NCBI GenBank assembly: GCA_015039365.1
Contig: WION01000159.1
Coordinates: 54,339 to 118,338, forward strand
Origin: Amanita rubescens
Lineage: Eukaryota > Basidiomycota > Agaricomycetes > Agaricales > Amanitaceae
Direction: 5' to 3'
Length of the DNA stretch: 64,000 nucleotides
Shown: positions 33,323 to 42,745 of the stretch, piece after piece
Layout: each line of letters opens with the position of its first letter
Position numbering within the stretch: position 1 is the stretch's first letter
Position numbers and translations under genes: made by a program
Notes under the pieces: generated by a model
Database searches by the model: none
Told to the model about the DNA's origin: nothing
The model's input: the letters and a program-made list of their open reading frames with translations, nothing else

Positions 33323-33811
33323 TATGGAAACTACTGACAGTGCCACGTAACTATGATATCTGTCCACCTTCGTACATACTAGCCTTGATATAACTCCCCA
33401 CTCATAGCTACTAATTAAAAAAATCTCAATCAGTATACTTCGACAACTAACATAGTCTAAACCCTCTTTAATGATGTCTAATTCAATGTTTTTGCTGTAA
33501 TCCTCTTGTCTTGGTTATATCTAATATACGAAAATGTGTTTTCAATTAGATCTAATTGCATCTAGCTGAAGAGGCCTTTAATTCGGAGCAAAGTAATTCT
33601 AATCTAATTTCCTCTAATGTAGGAACTCGTAACTACGTGTTATTAGATCTAACTGGATACAATTTAACTTAATTAACTTAAATTAAGGGTTTGGCTTTTT
33701 CCTGATGAAATAAGTCCCATAGCCTCCTGTTGGGAAGAAGGCGGTCCCTTCTTTGATTGGCGCGTGAAGTAGTGCTGAAATTCCGAGGCCGAAACGAAGT
33801 TTAGGAATAGT

Positions 33812-34270
33812 TAGTCTCGTTCCCAGCCGTTCCACGAAACACGTCGAGCGGACTCGTAGAACGTCTGGGGCAAAACAGTAGAGAGGGGGGGGGTCACTCT
33901 ACATTACTGTTTCTTAAGGATCTTTACCCTTGGGAATCATTCCTGGCCATCAGAGGTGTGGCTCGGACTTGTGTGGGCTACTCCTGGTGAGTCAATGGGC
34001 GCCAATGGTTCATAGGGATTGCGTTGGGGAAGCAAAAAGGGACATTATGGCGTAGTGGTTATATCATCATATTGTTTTTGCGAGACGAGGGTTCGAACCC
34101 GATACATGTTGCATTTTTTTTCTCGCGGTTTTTACATCAGCAAAACCTCTAGTAAGCTTTTTTGAGCCCAATAGAGGCAGACTCCTACCCAGTCCCAGCA
34201 TCGCTCGTTATGTAAGCATGTCGCTCTGGAGGGACTGGCAAATAACATGCGTCAACAACGTCCCGCGTTG
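33812..34270 (+). repeat. Left TIR of the RecQ element
   Basis: Matches 42430-42736 in inverted orientation. It is ~150 bp longer than the right arm. The extra sequence, roughly between 33930 and 34165, contains tRNA-like pol III boxes and is absent from the right arm. Confidence 0.75.
34040..34125 (+). other. tRNA-derived pol III unit (SINE-like or tRNA pseudogene)
   Basis: TGGCGTAGTGG (A-box-like) is followed ~40 bp later by GGTTCGAACCC (a perfect B box) and then a run of eight T, a pol III terminator. The T-arm does not form a good five-pair stem and the acceptor arms do not pair, so it is not a functional tRNA. It occurs only in the left TIR, so it is probably a separate small insertion. 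Confidence 0.45.
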
Positions 34271-34400
34271 TCACCAGTTGTCACGTTTGGCTTCGGCCGC
34301 GGCGGACCTTGAAATGTATTTCTAAAAATATGTACGTCGTACAGCGTCGGGGGAACGTCGAAATACTAGATGTATATATGCACTATCCTTCTGCTCGACA

Positions 34401-35021
34401 ATGCCTGAGTTACAACAGCCACAAGTACAGGGCATACAGCCACTACCTCAAAGGGACTTTACGGCTATATTGGATGCATTTGATGCATCTGGCTGCTCAA
34501 TTCCGGACCTCGTCATTGCTCTCTTGACCGAGCGGCGCTTCAAGAGCAGCACATACACTGCTGAGCTACTTCAGCAGTCTGGTGACGTCCTCAGGAGTCT
34601 GTTAAGACATGCCAAATTGCCTAGGAATGCTGAGAAGGCTGCTTGTGAGGCTCTGCACCGTGTCTATGTGCGTGAAATCAAGGACCTTGTCAAGCCAAGT
34701 GCTGGATGGAATTTCTCGGCCCAACAAGCAACACCAGAGGATATTGATGACTTTGATCTTGAGGACTTGGCTTCGGATGTAGCTGATACTGCTCCTCTGC
34801 TCTGGGCTCTGCTCGATATCTTGCTATCTGTACAGACTAGCAAGCTCCGGGTTGTGTATATCACAGCACGTCTCAATGACAGCCGGACGGCAGTGGTCAC
34901 AACCGTTGAGCATACTCGGGTCACATTCAAGGTGGAGGGATACTTGAATATATCAGACAAAACGTCATACAGTCACAAATGTGAAACTCACCAGCTTTTG
35001 TATTTTCGAACTGATCACTGA
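34401..35021 (+). CDS. Short ORF convergent with the helicase; possible truncated DUF6589-like protein
   Basis: Begins MPELQQPQVQGIQPLPQRDF. Contains TERRFKSSTYTAELLQQSGDVLRSLL, then REIKDLVKPSAGWNFSAQQAT and LASDVADTAPLLWALLDILLS. The pattern of a REI.L segment, then LA..V...AP.LW.LL, resembles the N-terminal part of DUF6589 proteins, an agaricomycete family I associate with mobile DNA; this is a weak, memory-based match. The reading after ~34850 loses that character and overlaps the 3' end of the helicase on the other strand, so the ORF looks cut short. It may be what is left of the element's original transposase after internal deletion. Confidence 0.4.
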   Translation: MPELQQPQVQGIQPLPQRDFTAILDAFDASGCSIPDLVIALLTERRFKSSTYTAELLQQSGDVLRSLLRHAKLPRNAEKAACEALHRVYVREIKDLVKPSAGWNFSAQQATPEDIDDFDLEDLASDVADTAPLLWALLDILLSVQTSKLRVVYITARLNDSRTAVVTTVEHTRVTFKVEGYLNISDKTSYSHKCETHQLLYFRTDH

Positions 35022-35737
35022 ATGGCTGGCAGCGACAACTGACCCCCCGGGTATCGGCATTAAGCAAGGTGAAAACAGCAGGTTCAATCTTCTCTTTTTT
35101 GGATTTCTTTCTCGAGTACGTTGAGGGCTTCTTTTTCTTCCCCTTCCCCTTCTCGTCATCCTTCTCATCCTCGGCATCATCAGAGTCATCCTTCTCCCCC
35201 CCCTCCACCTCCACCTCCACCTCCCCTTCCTCCTCTCCCTCTTCGTCGGAAGCCTCGTGGTCCCGGGATGCCGCTGACCGACTCGTAGAAGGCCCCAGTT
35301 TAGTTTGTTTGGCAGTCGATGATGTACCTGGTTCAATTTTGATAGAAGAAGAATTGCGCTTTCGTTTCTTTTTTTCGTTTGCGAGAACGTCGAAATACTC
35401 CTTTTCGGCAAAAAAAATTGCAGTACCCTCAAGGGTCGGATCACGAACGCAACATCCAAATCGTTGCCAAAGAGCTGATATAGATGGAGTGGCATGCCAT
35501 TGGATAACAATTGCGATGTCAGGTAGATCCATACCCTGAGCATCCCTTAGTACATTGTAAATTTGCGCTAACGTGAACTCACCATCCCGAATGAATCGGT
35601 TGCCATCAGACCCCACGTTTCACCCCAAGCCAACCGTCCTGCTTCATTCCGCTTGAACTTATCTGACATCTCTGAATTGAACCACTTGACACGGTGGTGT
35701 TGATCTTTAGGCAATAAGCTTTGCAAGAATAGGCCGG

Positions 35738-36135
35738 TGAAACGATCAGAAGAAGGCCGATGCGGAAGTGCGTTCGGCCAAAGGGGCTTCGGAGGTCAGT
35801 CCTGGGGGTGCCTCGGAGGCAGAGAGGGCGCCGAATGCGAAGGTGAACGAGTGGAAGGTGTCCGAAGCACCGAGGAACGAAGGGAACGAAAGGAATCGAA
35901 CTCGGAGCAGTAATGGGGTGATAATTCGCTAACTACAACTATGTACACAATGGTATATATACTACGGAGGCATGAGGTGACCATGTGATGAATCCTGCAC
36001 CGAGTCCGAGGGTCTGTGCGTGCATCCGAACTCAAACGATCATCCTCCGGGGTCGAGTATAGGCTCGGAGTGCTTCGGGGAGCTTCGGAAGGTTTCGGAG
36101 ATCAGTTCCAACGTAGCCGGAATCGGCTCGTTACA
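35738..36135 (-). repeat. LTR of the gag-only element (3')
   Basis: 398 bp; starts TGAAACGATCAG on the plus strand and ends GGCTCGTTACA. Homologous to 37974-38371 and to the solo LTR at 41967-42363. Confidence 0.95.
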
Positions 36136-36478
36136 CCTCCTGGGTACTTTTAATACTGACCTCCTGGTCAGGACGGGGAGATCGGATGGTGATAGGAAGT
36201 AGAAGGGAAGTGGTGGGTGGGTTCTTCTCATCTCGCTTTCTTCAATCGTGCAGGCGGTCAGGGCGGCAGTTGGAATTTCGGCGGAATCAGGTCTCGGAAT
36301 GGCAGCTGTCAGGGATGCCAGATGGCTCGGAAATGATGAAAGACTTCGGCGATGGGGTCGCCGAGGGTTTCCAGGGTGGCAGAAATTGGCGTAGCAGTGG
36401 TGGGGTCATCAGAAGCCTCGGAGGTCTCGGTGGTATCATGCGTTGTAGTGGTAGGAGCAGTCGGAGGGTCTGGAGGGT

Positions 36479-37650
36479 TCAGAGGGTTTCGGAGGGGGTG
36501 GTATTAGGGAGCGTGGATTGATTAGGGATCGTGGTGCTAATGTGTATGTGCGTCGGAGTCGTATGTACGTTTTGCAGTTCTTCAGTATTGACAGGCTCGG
36601 CGGTATGCGTTCCGGAGTGGTCTAGAGCTTCCAGGAAGTAGTTGGAGGACACAAATGGCTTCGGAGCGGTCGGCTGTGTGTACCTCAGCAGCCATACATC
36701 GATGCGTTCTTTGAACCATTGTCCGAAGTGGCGGTATTGGAATGCATTCGGTTCGTTGCCATCCAAAAATTGAATCCGTCCGTCGACTATTTTGATCTTC
36801 CCTTGCCTTGCATATTCATCCCTGATATGGCACCAGGCCATCCGATGATTGATATCTCCGCAGAAAATGCATCCGCTAAGGAGATGGGTGGAAGCTGTGC
36901 TCGGAGCGAAGGCAGTGCTCGGAGGGGGAGTAGGGATAGGTGTTGGAGGCGTCGGAAGCGTCGGAGCTTGTGGGGTGGTCGCGGCGAGCAAGGCTATAGC
37001 AGACCTTGAGCTGATAATGAATTGCGCGGCACTATTCATGTCTTTTAGATCATAGCCGTCATCGGGGTGGACGTCCGGGTACTTGATTGTGAGCCGAGTA
37101 GTGATATCAGGTCGGAGATCCGGAGGGAATGCGGACATGTACATGATGCTTGCCTCACAGGCGTGTCATGTGGCGCTTTCCGATGAGGTATTGAGCTGTT
37201 CCGGAAAATTCCCTGTGATACTCAGCAAGGGCTGTCTCGGATGTGACATTTTGCGCTGAGAAGCGGTCGGAAACGGCATGTAGTGCTGCAATAGTGTGGC
37301 GGCGATCGGGCTGTGCCTCGGGGTAGATCTCGGCAATTCGCTTTCTTAAACGCGTCCCAGGTTTTCGGATCCGATAGGGTGTCCCGAGCGGCTCTCCAGA
37401 TCTCGGAAGATTTCTCATCGGTGTAGTAGACAGCCCATTTGATCAGTTCAGCATCTCCGGAGCGTTGTCTATCCTCGCAGATCATCTCGATATCTTCGAG
37501 GTATCTCTCAAGGCCAGCGGCAGTGCCTCGGAAGCAGGGTGCCTCCTTGTTCGTTCGGATGGGCATGCGGCGGCTTGGTTCGGTCATGATGTTACTGGCA
37601 GGCCGAAGCGAAGCGAGCTGTTCTGATGGAAAGCGAGGTGGATTAAGCAA
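36479..37650 (-). pseudogene. Retroelement gag with a CCHC-like knuckle, two frameshifts
   Basis: Three minus-strand frames succeed one another. 37222-37650 includes APCFRGTAAGLERYLEDIE and WAVYYTDEKSSEIWRA. 37155-37418 includes HTIAALHAVSDRFSA and LAEYHREFSGTAQYLI. 36479-37144 includes PPDLRPDITTRLTIKYPDVHPDD, then a Pro/Thr/Ala spacer, and the knuckle CIFCGDINHRMAWC (C-x2-C-x4-H-x4-C). This is the layout of a Ty3/Gypsy-like basidiomycete gag. The frame changes near 37335 and 37150 mean that the present copy makes no full-length Gag. Confidence 0.75.
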
Positions 37651-37973
37651 GGGGCTTCAGGGACGAAAGCTATTGATCGATCGGAGCTGGATCGGGAGTA
37701 GTGGAACGTGTGGGCGTTGTTCGGCTGATGCTGTGTCAGTGCTGTGGGGCCGAGTGGTGAAGGCTACTGCAGTGTAAAGAGCGGGGAGGGTATAATTGAA
37801 GAAAGGTCGGCGGGGTATGGTCTCTGAGCTATGGGAGGGCCGGCAGAGTGCTTGGAGTGGCTCGGAGCAGATTCCAAGTGACACCGGAGCTTGTCCGATG
37901 CTTTCTGTGCAGGAGTTGGGTGAAAGGAATGACCGACGGACTGACCTAAGAGCCCCTCGCGGTGGGCTCCAGT

Positions 37974-38371
37974 TGAAACGATCAGAAGAAGGCCGATGCG
38001 GAAGTGCGTTCGGCCAAAGGGGCTTCGGAGGTCAGTCCTGGGGGTGCCTCGGAGGCAGAGAGGGTGCCGAATGCGAAGGTGAACGAGTGGAAGGTGTCCG
38101 AAGCACCAAGGAACGAAGGGAACGAAAGGAATCGAACTCGGAGCAGTAATGGGGTGATAATTCGCTAACTACAACTATGTACACAATGGTATATATACTA
38201 CGGAGGCACGAGGTGACCATGTGATGAATCCTGCACCGAGTCCGAGGGTCTGTGCGTGCATCCGAACTCAAACGATCATCCTCCGGGGTCGAGTATAGGC
38301 TCGGAGTGCTTCGGGGAGCTTCGGAAGGTTTCGGAGATCAGTTCCAACGTAGCCGGAATCGGCTCGTTACA
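37974..38371 (-). repeat. LTR of the gag-only element (5')
   Basis: 398 bp; near-identical to 35738-36135 (a few substitutions such as GAGGGCGCC/GAGGGTGCC and AGCACCGAGG/AGCACCAAGG). CCGG follows at 38372-38375. Confidence 0.95.
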
Positions 38372-39369
38372 CCGGCTAAAACAGACTCGTTGATGTTGTC
38401 GAAAAAGACCAGAAACTTCGGCGGTGGTGGATCACCAAGCTTCCAGTTGCATAATAAGAACGAAAGGTCCCGGAACGTGCGAATGGGATTGAGAATTGGG
38501 CAGACGAGTATCTTGATGTTGGTGCGATCAGTAGAGCAACGGGAAATGAATAAAGCTTCTTCACGAAGGTGCAAGACTTTCTTGACGTTGTCGATTACAC
38601 CTGATGACATTGTTGCCGATGTCGCTAGAGTTGGGCAGGGTTTACGCTGCAAATAACGAAGACGTCCGATTTCACAGTATTCAGGTCAAAAAGTTCCCCA
38701 CTGTGAGATACAGTGGGCTTCGTCAATGACGATACTGATGACGTGGTCATTGAAAGTCTTATCGCTGAGGAGCTTCTCAAAGCCGCCTTTAGGCCGCATC
38801 AGCTCCTCCGGATTGACGATGATGACTCAATATCGAAATGAAGCAATGAGCTACTCAAGTTGTGAGCAAATATGTTGAATATGCAAAGAATGTCAAAGGC
38901 TCACCCGAAAATTCCATTCTGTCGCAGTTTTAGCCGATATGAAGATTCCTTCTATGTCCAACCTGCTCAAAAGCTCCGTATTTTGTTCCCCAAGAATGTT
39001 TAAGGGTGTGACAATGATCTGGATTCCTTGTGGCCGGAATAAGAGCGGCATCCAGAAGGTTAAGGTCTTCCCACTGCCAGTAGCCGCAAGCGAGATGACG
39101 TCTTGGCCACGTAAAATCGCATCACAGACGCGAACCTGCCATAGACATGGCCGTCTTCCGAGATTCTCAAGTGTTTTGGCCCGGATTTCATCGAACGATG
39201 GGCAATACGGATCAACAACCATATCTGTTTGACTAGACATAGAGAAATCGCCGAGATTGGCTGAAATTTTGAGTCAGAGGGTTAGATATGGTACAAGAAT
39301 TGATATACCACTCACCTTTTGTCAAGCCGAGCAATTGTGGCCAGGGGACAGGCGTGCCATGCAACTGGG

Positions 39370-41944
39370 CAGTACTTTACACTCCCCCCCCAGTCCGATT
39401 AGACTCCGACAGACTCCTATGACTCCTATAGGACTCCTATAGGACTCTGATCACTTTCTGATAAAATGTAAAAAAATGTAAAATGGTAGGAAACATGTTT
39501 GGCATTGTTTGTTTATGTTTATTTATATTAGGCATCTTTAACTTGCAAAAGAAATCCAAAATCCTTAAAAATAGTGAATAATGTTTGGCATTGTTTATTT
39601 ATGTTTATTTGTATTAGGCATCTTTAACTTGCAGAATAAATTCAAAAAAATACTGAAAAAATGCGGAAAATTCATGTGATCCAGGTTATCTAAGAATTAT
39701 AAAACCAAACAATGGCAAACTTGACATATTTGCAAAATACTTTTCAGATGCAAGTGTGATCTTGAAAAATGCACACAAGGTCATGCAAGAATTAGGACAC
39801 AAATCTGAGCCAAATTCTAGGTAAATGTAAAAGAATGTATCACCACTCCATGTGACCACCTGCAAAGCCATAGTTGAACCCAACACAATTTGGGTGTGTC
39901 TGGCTGGTGATGATCAATGTAGTACATATGTGTGATCAGTTAGAAAGGGCTGGCAGTGGTGAAAGTCAGTTTCAGTAATGTGACTTGAGTGGTGAGTAGA
40001 GGCTGCTGAGGTCAAGGACATTGGCAACATGCACATGGCAGTGGCTGCTGGGGGTGCAGTGCAGAGTGTTGAAGTGATGATCTAGTTTTAGTTCCACAAT
40101 CCCACATGTTTGTTGCCAGCAACAACCAATGACCACCAATCACCTATAATTGTCATAGGTAAATATGAGGGATTTGTGATTATGTATGTATTGAAGTCAA
40201 GGGGTGAAAGCAGGTGGAGATGAGTTCTTGGTTATTTGGTGATGCCGGGTACACAGTGAGTTGTGGTTTTTAGAACCATATTAATAATTGTCTGTCTGTC
40301 TGACTGTCTGTCTGTCTGTCTGACTGTCTGTCTGACTGTCTGACTGTCTGACTGACTGACTATCTGACTATCTGACAGGCACTGACAGATGTTAATGCAC
40401 TAATTATCTGGTTGTCTGACTATCTAATAGGCACTGACAGATGCTGACACACTGATTATCTGACTGTCTGACAGACAGTGTTTCATAAGTTGTCTGACTT
40501 GTCTGACTGTCTAACCATCTGAGCAGTGAGAGACACTTAAGCATCAGACAACATCAGACAAGGCTATGATCAGACGTTTGCTGTGTTAGTTGATGTACTA
40601 AGCTTCCACACTAGAAGCATGTGGCAAAGTTAACTCAGCAATGGTTAACTCAAATACTAAGAGAATGATGATATGATGAGTGCTAATACAATAGTAGGAT
40701 AGAGTCTTTGGATGTTTCAGACAGAAATTGAACAAAGTGTGGACAATGATAGATAACTTGATGAGTAAGTAGAGATACATAAGAGGGTCTGTCACTTCCA
40801 AAACTAATCAGGCATGCATAATGTGGGAGTCAATACTATTAGTAACAGAATGGTGGCTCAGTGACATCATGTAATTAGTATCAACTTCCAAAGTTCCAAT
40901 CACAATGGCAACACTATCTGGCACCTGTGCCCTGCCACACTGAGTGTCCTACTATCATGATCATTATCAGCTACCTCCAATCACAAGTACTATTAGTAAT
41001 TTGAAGTTAGGTACAGTGCCCTATAGGCCAATATCAGTCAGTCTCACCTTTACTAGTAGTAGGTGACTTATACTATAACTTTGTTGTCCATGCTCTGTTC
41101 CAGAATTGCCTCAAACCTAAGACTATGATATTCTATTGTTTTACCTAATATGTTTGAAGTTTCCCTGACCCCACACCTCCAGTGGTTTGTCTTATCAATG
41201 TGACCAGGGGCCCTTGTACAAAGTCACAAGATGTTTTGGCCGCAACCTATCAAATTTCTCTCCATTATATCTGAAGAATTAATTACAAATATCTTGGGTT
41301 TCAAAGGCTCTGTTCTGGAGCATGATTCTTGCACCATCTTGATCACATGATTTTTCCAGATTTTTCAAGATTTTTAGCAGCCTTTCAAATTTTCAACATG
41401 AAGTGTTTAAAACAGTATTTTGCAAATATCTTGAGTTTGGCATTGTTTGGCATGTCCATTTCCACACTAATCTGATCACATGATTTTTCCGGATTTTTCC
41501 AGATTTTTGGCAGCCATTCAATTTTTCAACACGAAGCGTTTAAAACAGTATTTTGCAAATAACTTGAGTTTGGCATTGTTTGGCATGTTCATTTACAAAC
41601 TAATCTGATTACATGATTTTTCTGCATATTTCGCAATTTTTTTCCAAAATTTCCCACGGTCACACAGTACTCTTGGCAAATGGTGGTATTACAAATGAGA
41701 CTACAAAGACTACATTAAAAAGCGGAGTCCTATAGGAATAGTCCTATTAGAGTCCTATGTCCTATTCGAGTCCGTCGGAAGGCTTCCTATTCATCCGATA
41801 CCAGTCCGATTGAAAAATGTAGTGTCAAAAAATTTGTAATGTTAATGTAATCTCATTTGTAATAAATTCCGATGTGACTCCTATAGGACTCCTAGGACTC
41901 CGATCGGACTCCGATCGGAATAGGGGGGGGACAGTAAAGACCTC
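39370..41944. mobile_element. Non-autonomous poly-C-ended TIR element, ~2.6 kb
   Basis: Left end CAGTACTTTACACTCCCCCCCC and, inverted, right end GAGGTCTTTACTGTCCCCCCCC. These are followed by inverted stretches of AGTCCGAT / GACTCCTATAGGACTCC repeats. GCAACTGGG is repeated directly outside (39361-39369 and 41945-41953). The interior is AT-rich, CpG-poor and non-coding, with a CTGT/CTGA microsatellite and duplicated subterminal blocks (TTTGGCATTGTTTG with ATTAGGCATCTTTAACTTGCA at ~39500 and ~39585; CTTGAGTTTGGCATTGTTTGG at ~41433 and ~41563). The CAG-type tip suggests hAT, but the repeat outside is 9 bp rather than 8, so superfamily is undecided. It lies ~130 bp 5' of the helicase start. Confidence 0.8.
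40285..40520. repeat. CTGT/CTGA microsatellite and derived spacer repeats
   Basis: Tetranucleotide run of CTGT and CTGA units at 40290-40375, followed by scattered remnants (TCTGACTGTCTGAC, GGCACTGACAGATG twice) to ~40520. It sits inside the poly-C-ended element. Confidence 0.9.
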
Positions 41945-41966
41945 GCAACTGGGTGATACGGCACGG

Positions 41967-42363
41967 TGAAACGATCAGAAGAAGGCCGATGCGGAAGTGC
42001 GTTCGGCCAAAGGGGCTTCGGAGGTCAGTCCTGGGGGTGCCTTGGAGGCAGAGAGGGTGCCGAATGCGAAGGTGAACGAGTGGAAGGTGTCCGAAGCACC
42101 GAGGAACGAAGGGAACGAAAGGAATCGAACTCGGAGCAGTAATGGGGTGATAATTCGCTAACTACAACTACGTACACAATGGTATATATACTACGGAGGC
42201 ACGAGGTGACCATGTGATGAATCCTGCACCGAGTCCGAGGCCTGTGCATGCGTCCGAACTCAAACGATCATCCTCCGGGGTCGAGTATAGGCTTGGAGTG
42301 CTTCGGGGAGCTTCGGAAGGTTTCGGAGATCGGTTCCAACGTAGCCGGAATCGGCTCGTTACA
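41967..42363 (-). repeat. Solo LTR of the gag-only family
   Basis: 397 bp; matches the two LTRs at 35738 and 37974 from TGAAACG to GTTACA. It has its own 4-bp duplication ACGG (41963-41966 and 42364-42367). No internal retroelement sequence is attached, so it is the product of LTR-LTR recombination. Confidence 0.9.
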
Positions 42364-42429
42364 ACGGCCAACGCGCGCTCAAGTTATTCAAAGTCCGAAA
42401 AGATGTCACAGAAAGTAACGCAACCACGA

Positions 42430-42736
42430 CGTTGTTGACGCATGTTATTTGCCAGTCCCTCCAGAGCAATACGCTTACATAACATCGTCAAGCTAGCTCC
42501 GAGGGACTGGGTAGGAGTCTGCAATAGAGGCTAATTTACACAAATGCCACTCGATGTGTGAGCCCCAAGCCAGAAATCAACTGACCCCCCCCCTCGCGGT
42601 TGTTTTGCGCCAGACGTTATAGAGCGAGTTGTCGTGCGCAACAATCCAAATTAAAACTCAGCCCGGCTCACTCCGAATGCTCACACATGGGACTCATAGC
42701 ACATCAACTCGCTCATTACGTCTGGGAACGAGACTA
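42430..42736 (-). repeat. Right TIR of the RecQ element
   Basis: Inverted match to 33812-34270. It begins TTGTTGACGCATGTTATTTGCC and ends at the CTGGGAACGAGACTA tip. The internal CCCCCCCC run corresponds to the G-run in the left arm. Confidence 0.75.
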
Positions 42737-42745
42737 AGGAATAGT

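Follow-up and report, generated by a model that had tools for sequence, protein, structure and literature searches.

Two nested DNA transposons around a RecQ-like helicase gene in Amanita rubescens

What kind of mobile element encloses a RecQ-like helicase gene within terminal inverted repeats (TIRs)? The question is raised by positions 33812-42736 of a 64,000-nucleotide stretch of the Amanita rubescens genome (assembly GCA_015039365.1, contig WION01000159.1, positions 54,339 to 118,338), referred to here as the window. An earlier note on this DNA took the feature to be one TIR element of a kind it could not name: either a new non-autonomous family with a captured helicase, or an element in which RecQ was the standard partner of a transposase since lost. 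The feature is instead two nested elements, an outer X and an inner Y, and the RecQ gene belongs to Y. Both are very probably non-autonomous DNA transposons of one two-gene, cut-and-paste-type system that makes 9-bp target-site duplications (TSDs) and resembles AcademH, the two genes encoding a RecQ-like helicase and a DUF6589 protein.

Two elements, two target-site duplications

The tip TAGTCTCGTTCCCAG was found exactly at 33812-33826 on the plus strand and 42722-42736 on the minus strand in a scan of the window allowing up to two mismatches. The 9-bp sequence AGGAATAGT directly borders both ends of X, at 33803-33811 on the left and 42737-42745 on the right. The perfect 15-bp tips and the exact duplication had been described correctly. 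The scan had 0.10 expected matches, and two matches occurred in one of 100 shuffles. Across the window's own 75.7-Mb genome the tip occurred 40 times, compared with zero for a reversed-pattern control.

Inside X lies a second perfect pair of tips, CAGACTCCTACCCAGTC, whose outer ends are at 34178 and 42521. These inner tips are bordered by exact 9-bp copies of CAATAGAGG, at 34169-34177 and 42522-42530, within X. Because the inner tips have an exact TSD of their own, the feature is not one element. Tip search and alignment place Y at 34178-42521. The tip scan and genome comparison leave X with a left part of 366 bp (33812-34177) and a right part of 206 bp carrying the reversed tip (42531-42736); once Y is removed, X is a non-autonomous element of about 572 bp.

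Genomic matches separated the two layers in the same way. Using the right end as a query, with 40 of 141 candidates scored, all matches except the window's own fell in bases 1-195 or from base 212 onward, and the outer and inner layers matched two different sets of genomic places. Two relatives of X without Y (C650 and C81, probably alleles given their common left flank) aligned across the Y site in one piece at 88% identity with 25-26 gap positions. No empty allele of X was shown, the left flank being identical to C284 over only the first 208 of 312 bases. This identical stretch comprised window positions 33500-33707 and C284:7653-7860, and identity stopped about 100 bp before X, at either another insertion or a haplotype difference.

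The CAGACTCCTACCCAGTC tip was present in 129 exact copies in the genome (64 forward and 65 reverse; control zero), of which 100 were listed. When repeat lengths of 3 to 13 bp were tried on the first 10 Y-tip pairs sampled, nine pairs showed an exact repeat at 9 bp only. Three further pairs gave a 9-bp repeat at C626 and C268 and none at C362, which has the same flanks as the failing locus, C91. Altogether, and leaving the window aside, 11 of 13 pairs, or 11 of 12 loci, had a 9-bp TSD. At C10:105086-105954 (L063 and L064) the 9-bp target repeat of a short Y-tip copy, GGTAGGAGT, was part of another Y tip; here the family inserted into its own end.

The helicase gene and its DUF6589 partner

The helicase gene of Y lies on the minus strand at 34930-39240, its ends taken from open reading frames (ORFs), and is broken by two in-frame TGA codons and a long terminal repeat (LTR) retrotransposon. 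A Pfam scan of the window gene returned DEAD at 3.3e-9 and Helicase_C at 0.046, under its cut-off. In the helicase pieces of L012, a fuller copy, DEAD was above its cut-off while Helicase_C and HRDC were just under theirs. The best PDB sequence matches of the helicase were WRN, followed by RecQ, RECQL, RecQ5 and BLM. A RecQ gene present in one copy only would have spoken for a host gene, as the earlier note had it; a single helicase exon had 57 matches in the genome.

Beyond the window the genome has 38 TAGTCTCG tips; 20 of these were fetched in bulk, and C373 was added afterwards. Three of the fetched loci (L012, L018 and L024, the last two with a common flank) had a partner end and an exact 9-bp TSD; at the other 17, no end of this kind was found within the stretch fetched. 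L012 is 5943 bp long and contains a DUF6589 gene (4.4e-125) and a helicase on the opposite strand, with part of the DUF6589 protein missing from L018 and L024. Copies C46, C97, C141 and C373 had 9-bp TSDs, that of C373 being TCGGTACAC, and C46 and C373 each carried long open frames for both genes inside these duplications. The full copies C257, C46 and C373 measured 5.7-6.0 kb. Another DUF6589/RecQ element, at C115, had a right end that matched the outermost 151 bp of X at 90% identity; a search of the 701 bases fetched did not reveal its left end. A 365-bp copy at C743 had an 8-bp repeat, the sole 8-bp case among copies looked at. TIRs standing alone around unrelated sequence, which would have counted against a helicase element, were found in short non-autonomous copies such as this one, and are no surprise because they are expected of miniature inverted-repeat transposable elements.

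The pairing of the two genes extended across the genome. Merging reduced 45 DUF6589 matches to 28 loci and 47 matches of a single helicase query to 42, both counts taking allelic contigs twice. A helicase match lay within 6 kb of 25 of the 28 DUF6589 loci, 22 of them tail-to-tail, where chance would give about 0.007 per locus; 17 helicase loci had no nearby DUF6589. With these numbers, and with both genes present in C46 and C373, the suggestion that RecQ is the standard partner of a transposase lost from the window is supported. At three DUF6589 loci (C236:20194-25924, C385:190691-195972 and C760:41121-46783) the helicase was upstream on the same strand, and in C236 and C385 additional helicase pieces lay on the opposite strand some 14-20 kb downstream, as though insertions had split the element. 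Several loci were seen twice, by the same flank or by match scores (L011/L014, L013/L022, L018/L024, L025/L026, C331/C300, C135/C189 and C321/C605), as if both nuclear haplotypes had been assembled. Synonymous divergence (dS) was saturated in most pairs among the 12 of 20 extracted loci that were compared, C115 being left out for one stop.

The DUF6589 protein is probably a DDE transposase: its predicted structure is RNase H-like and shows a conserved D/D/E set, the putative catalytic triad being D87, D256 and E501; in the structural comparison, the non-appearance of a family was not counted as its exclusion. The Pfam scan of the L012 protein returned DUF6589 and one weak unrelated family. Among the matches listed in two protein searches (120 of 185 and 120 of 374), homologues were named hypothetical, uncharacterized, unnamed or DUF6589-domain proteins.

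Y has lost most of this partner gene. Copy C41, which is 2721 bp long with TSD ATTCCAAAC, matched Y of the window at 99.4-99.8%, insertions aside. Direct alignment of C41 with the 5734-bp C257 revealed that about 3.0 kb is missing, that 11 bp can be aligned at either edge of the gap, and that the DUF6589 domain sits in the missing part. C41 and Y of the window retain the helicase gene and the N-terminus of the DUF6589 protein (MPELQQPQVQG..., also present in C257); ORFs and alignment place this remnant on the plus strand at 34401-34839, stopping at the deletion junction. Over 2712 gap-free columns compared with C257, 20 differences were common to C41 and the window, 11 were found in the window only and one in C41 only. 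Two in-frame TGA codons lie in the matched helicase sequence of each of C41, C626 and the window; by our reading they appear to be identical in C41 and the window. The tips of C626 were about 2.7 kb apart, and the TSDs differed among C41, C626 and Y of the window. A derivative that lacks the transposase and has a broken helicase thus occupies several sites, and therefore mobilisation in trans is inferred.

Two groups of helicases were distinguished by their tips. The TAGTCTCG tips enclosed helicases with 52-100% identity to the L012 helicase (C46, C97, C383, C141, C373 and C331 near 1456000), and the CAGACTCC tips enclosed helicases 30-35% identical to it (C5, C41, C138, C257, C321 and the window). 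In C25, a member of the CAGACTCC group, a 61-residue piece was 45% identical to the L012 helicase and another 126 residues were identical to the window. Judged from the listed helicases that lie within listed tips, the two tips would, on our reading, pair with the two helicase groups. C300 was a misfit, its TAGTCTCG tip pointing away from its DUF6589/helicase pair.

AcademH and the alternatives

The AcademH lineage of the Academ superfamily reportedly goes back to Kojima 2020. AcademH has TSDs of 9 or 10 bp and AcademX of 3 or 4 bp, a difference tied to helicase versus nuclease (PMC10045372). Recognisable domains not specific to transposable elements, such as DEAD (PF00270) and recQ_fam, were reported for 1,568 of 1,938 fungal Academ copies (PMC6416283), and AcademH is present in Basidiomycota, Ascomycota and Mucoromycota (PMC10799480). 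Curated bivalve Academ elements average 5565 bp (PMC10294476), near the length of the full copies here. Compared by description only, the present system and AcademH are both DNA transposons with TIRs that carry a helicase gene, make 9-bp TSDs and occur in Basidiomycota, and no difference between the two was seen. The helicase is of the superfamily 2 (SF2) RecQ type by its DEAD domain and its WRN and RecQ matches. Duplications of 9 bp were found at X, at Y, at 11 of 13 sampled Y pairs and at C46, C97, C141 and C373; the misses were C91, the same locus as C362, the 8-bp C743, and the 17 of 20 fetched TAGTCTCG-tip loci without a partner end. Terminal inverted repeats are present, and a DDE transposase in the same element is indicated by predicted fold and conserved residues. 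The DUF6589-RecQ system is filed here as AcademH-like and is most likely AcademH.

A separate, unnamed superfamily, like AcademH only in its helicase and 9-bp TSDs, is an improbable alternative. DUF6589 is catalogued in Pfam as a family of unknown function, no transposon name appeared among the homologues listed, and a literature search by the name DUF6589 found nothing; this was limited literature, and the absence of a Pfam name from papers tells nothing of Repbase entries. Against a separate superfamily stand the helicase and the 9- or 10-bp TSDs described for AcademH (PMC10045372), the DEAD and recQ_fam domains of fungal Academ (PMC6416283) and the occurrence of AcademH in Basidiomycota (PMC10799480). 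It is similarly doubtful that DUF6589 would serve as DDE transposase in a RecQ-dependent superfamily outside Academ, one whose two lineages parted long ago (transposases 21% and helicases about 31% identical) and each retained an obligate helicase.

A single long-TIR non-autonomous element that captured a host RecQ gene, the other suggestion of the earlier note, is very unlikely. The perfect outer tips, the 9-bp duplication and the helicase inside would suit it; against it are the inner tips with their own TSD, the different genomic matches of inner and outer ends, the relatives of X that align across the Y site, the copies of Y outside X, and a RecQ gene that is multi-copy and accompanies DUF6589 at most DUF6589 loci.

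That the two genes form a Kolobok (KolobokH) transposon is scarcely credible. KolobokH likewise joins a transposase to a RecQ helicase and is known from fungi only, and one other Kolobok, the red algal Kolobok-1_CCri, encodes RecQ on the complementary strand (PMC9587614), a layout found here too. However, Kolobok makes TTAA-specific 4-bp TSDs (PMC9587614), whereas those found here are 9 bp and varied, and the helicase here has a gene to itself, on the opposite strand; KolobokH was rejected on the TSDs. With AcademH and KolobokH already named, helicase-carrying TIR elements are not the nameless class they had seemed. Fungal subtelomeric RecQ families exist (PMC4522978), yet a spread of telomere-linked helicases by subtelomeric recombination can hardly explain copies that lie between TIR tips with TSDs, many beside DUF6589.

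Three further classes were rejected. Helitrons have neither TIRs nor a target-site duplication (PMC4522978), and perfect tips and 9-bp TSDs are present here. The Pfam scan of the L012 DUF6589 protein contained no domain of Mutator-like elements (MULEs). Long TIRs and 9-bp TSDs are typical of MULEs and form the likeness; the RecQ partner here is the difference. The hAT elements make 8-bp TSDs and are not known to carry a helicase. Hermes, a hAT, differs at 8% identity, and the 9-bp TSDs and the helicase here set the system apart, 8 bp being seen at C743 only.

Later insertions and what the locus means

Y contains further foreign DNA, so that the earlier description of a RecQ-like helicase as the sole large gene of the core held for the presence of the helicase and failed for the rest, the gene being broken and accompanied by a retrotransposon, an AT-rich element and a solo LTR. 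The LTR retrotransposon (35738-38371, minus strand, located by repeats and ORFs) lies inside the helicase gene between 4-bp CCGG duplications. Its LTRs, at 35738-36135 and 37974-38371, were identical at 392 and different at 3 of the 395 positions compared, and its gag-like ORFs had a weak zinc-knuckle match. Repeats also delimited the 2.6-kb AT-rich element (39370-41944), which has imperfect TIRs, a 9-bp repeat GCAACTGGG at 39361-39369 and 41945-41953, and internal tandem repeats of 133 bp and of TGTCTGAC. The solo LTR (41967-42363, minus strand) belongs to the same retrotransposon family and has the 4-bp TSD ACGG.

X itself contains a tRNA-like stretch on the plus strand (34048-34121), with what we take to be an A-box (34048-34058) and a B-box (34090-34099), followed by a run of eight T. 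Neither ARAGORN nor Rfam recognised anything in this stretch, which occurred at three genome places only (the window and two partial), and a short interspersed element inside X was rejected.

The order of events would be as follows. X inserted first, duplicating AGGAATAGT; an internally deleted 2.7-kb member of family Y then entered X, duplicating CAATAGAGG; and the LTR retrotransposon, the AT-rich element and the solo LTR followed into Y, in one order or another. Autonomous members would encode the DUF6589 protein, taken as a DDE transposase, and the RecQ-like SF2 helicase, mostly tail-to-tail. The DUF6589 protein would cut the ends and join them to the target with a 9-bp stagger, the helicase may open or process either the ends of the element or the intermediate formed during joining, and fuller relatives would have moved the window copies in trans. 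The window copies are dead as well as nested, and the usual partner of RecQ is a DUF6589 protein, probably the transposase, which they have lost.

A puzzling helicase within a transposon thus resolves into copies, nested and dead, that belong to a two-gene system of recognisable type, ordinary in kind and informative in detail. A function is proposed for Pfam DUF6589, that of a putative DDE transposase with a RecQ partner. The family occurs in many mushroom genomes, where DUF6589 and some RecQ-like "hypothetical proteins" are candidates for transposon genes rather than genes of host repair. In C46 and C373 both genes have long open frames, which makes the role of the helicase directly testable.
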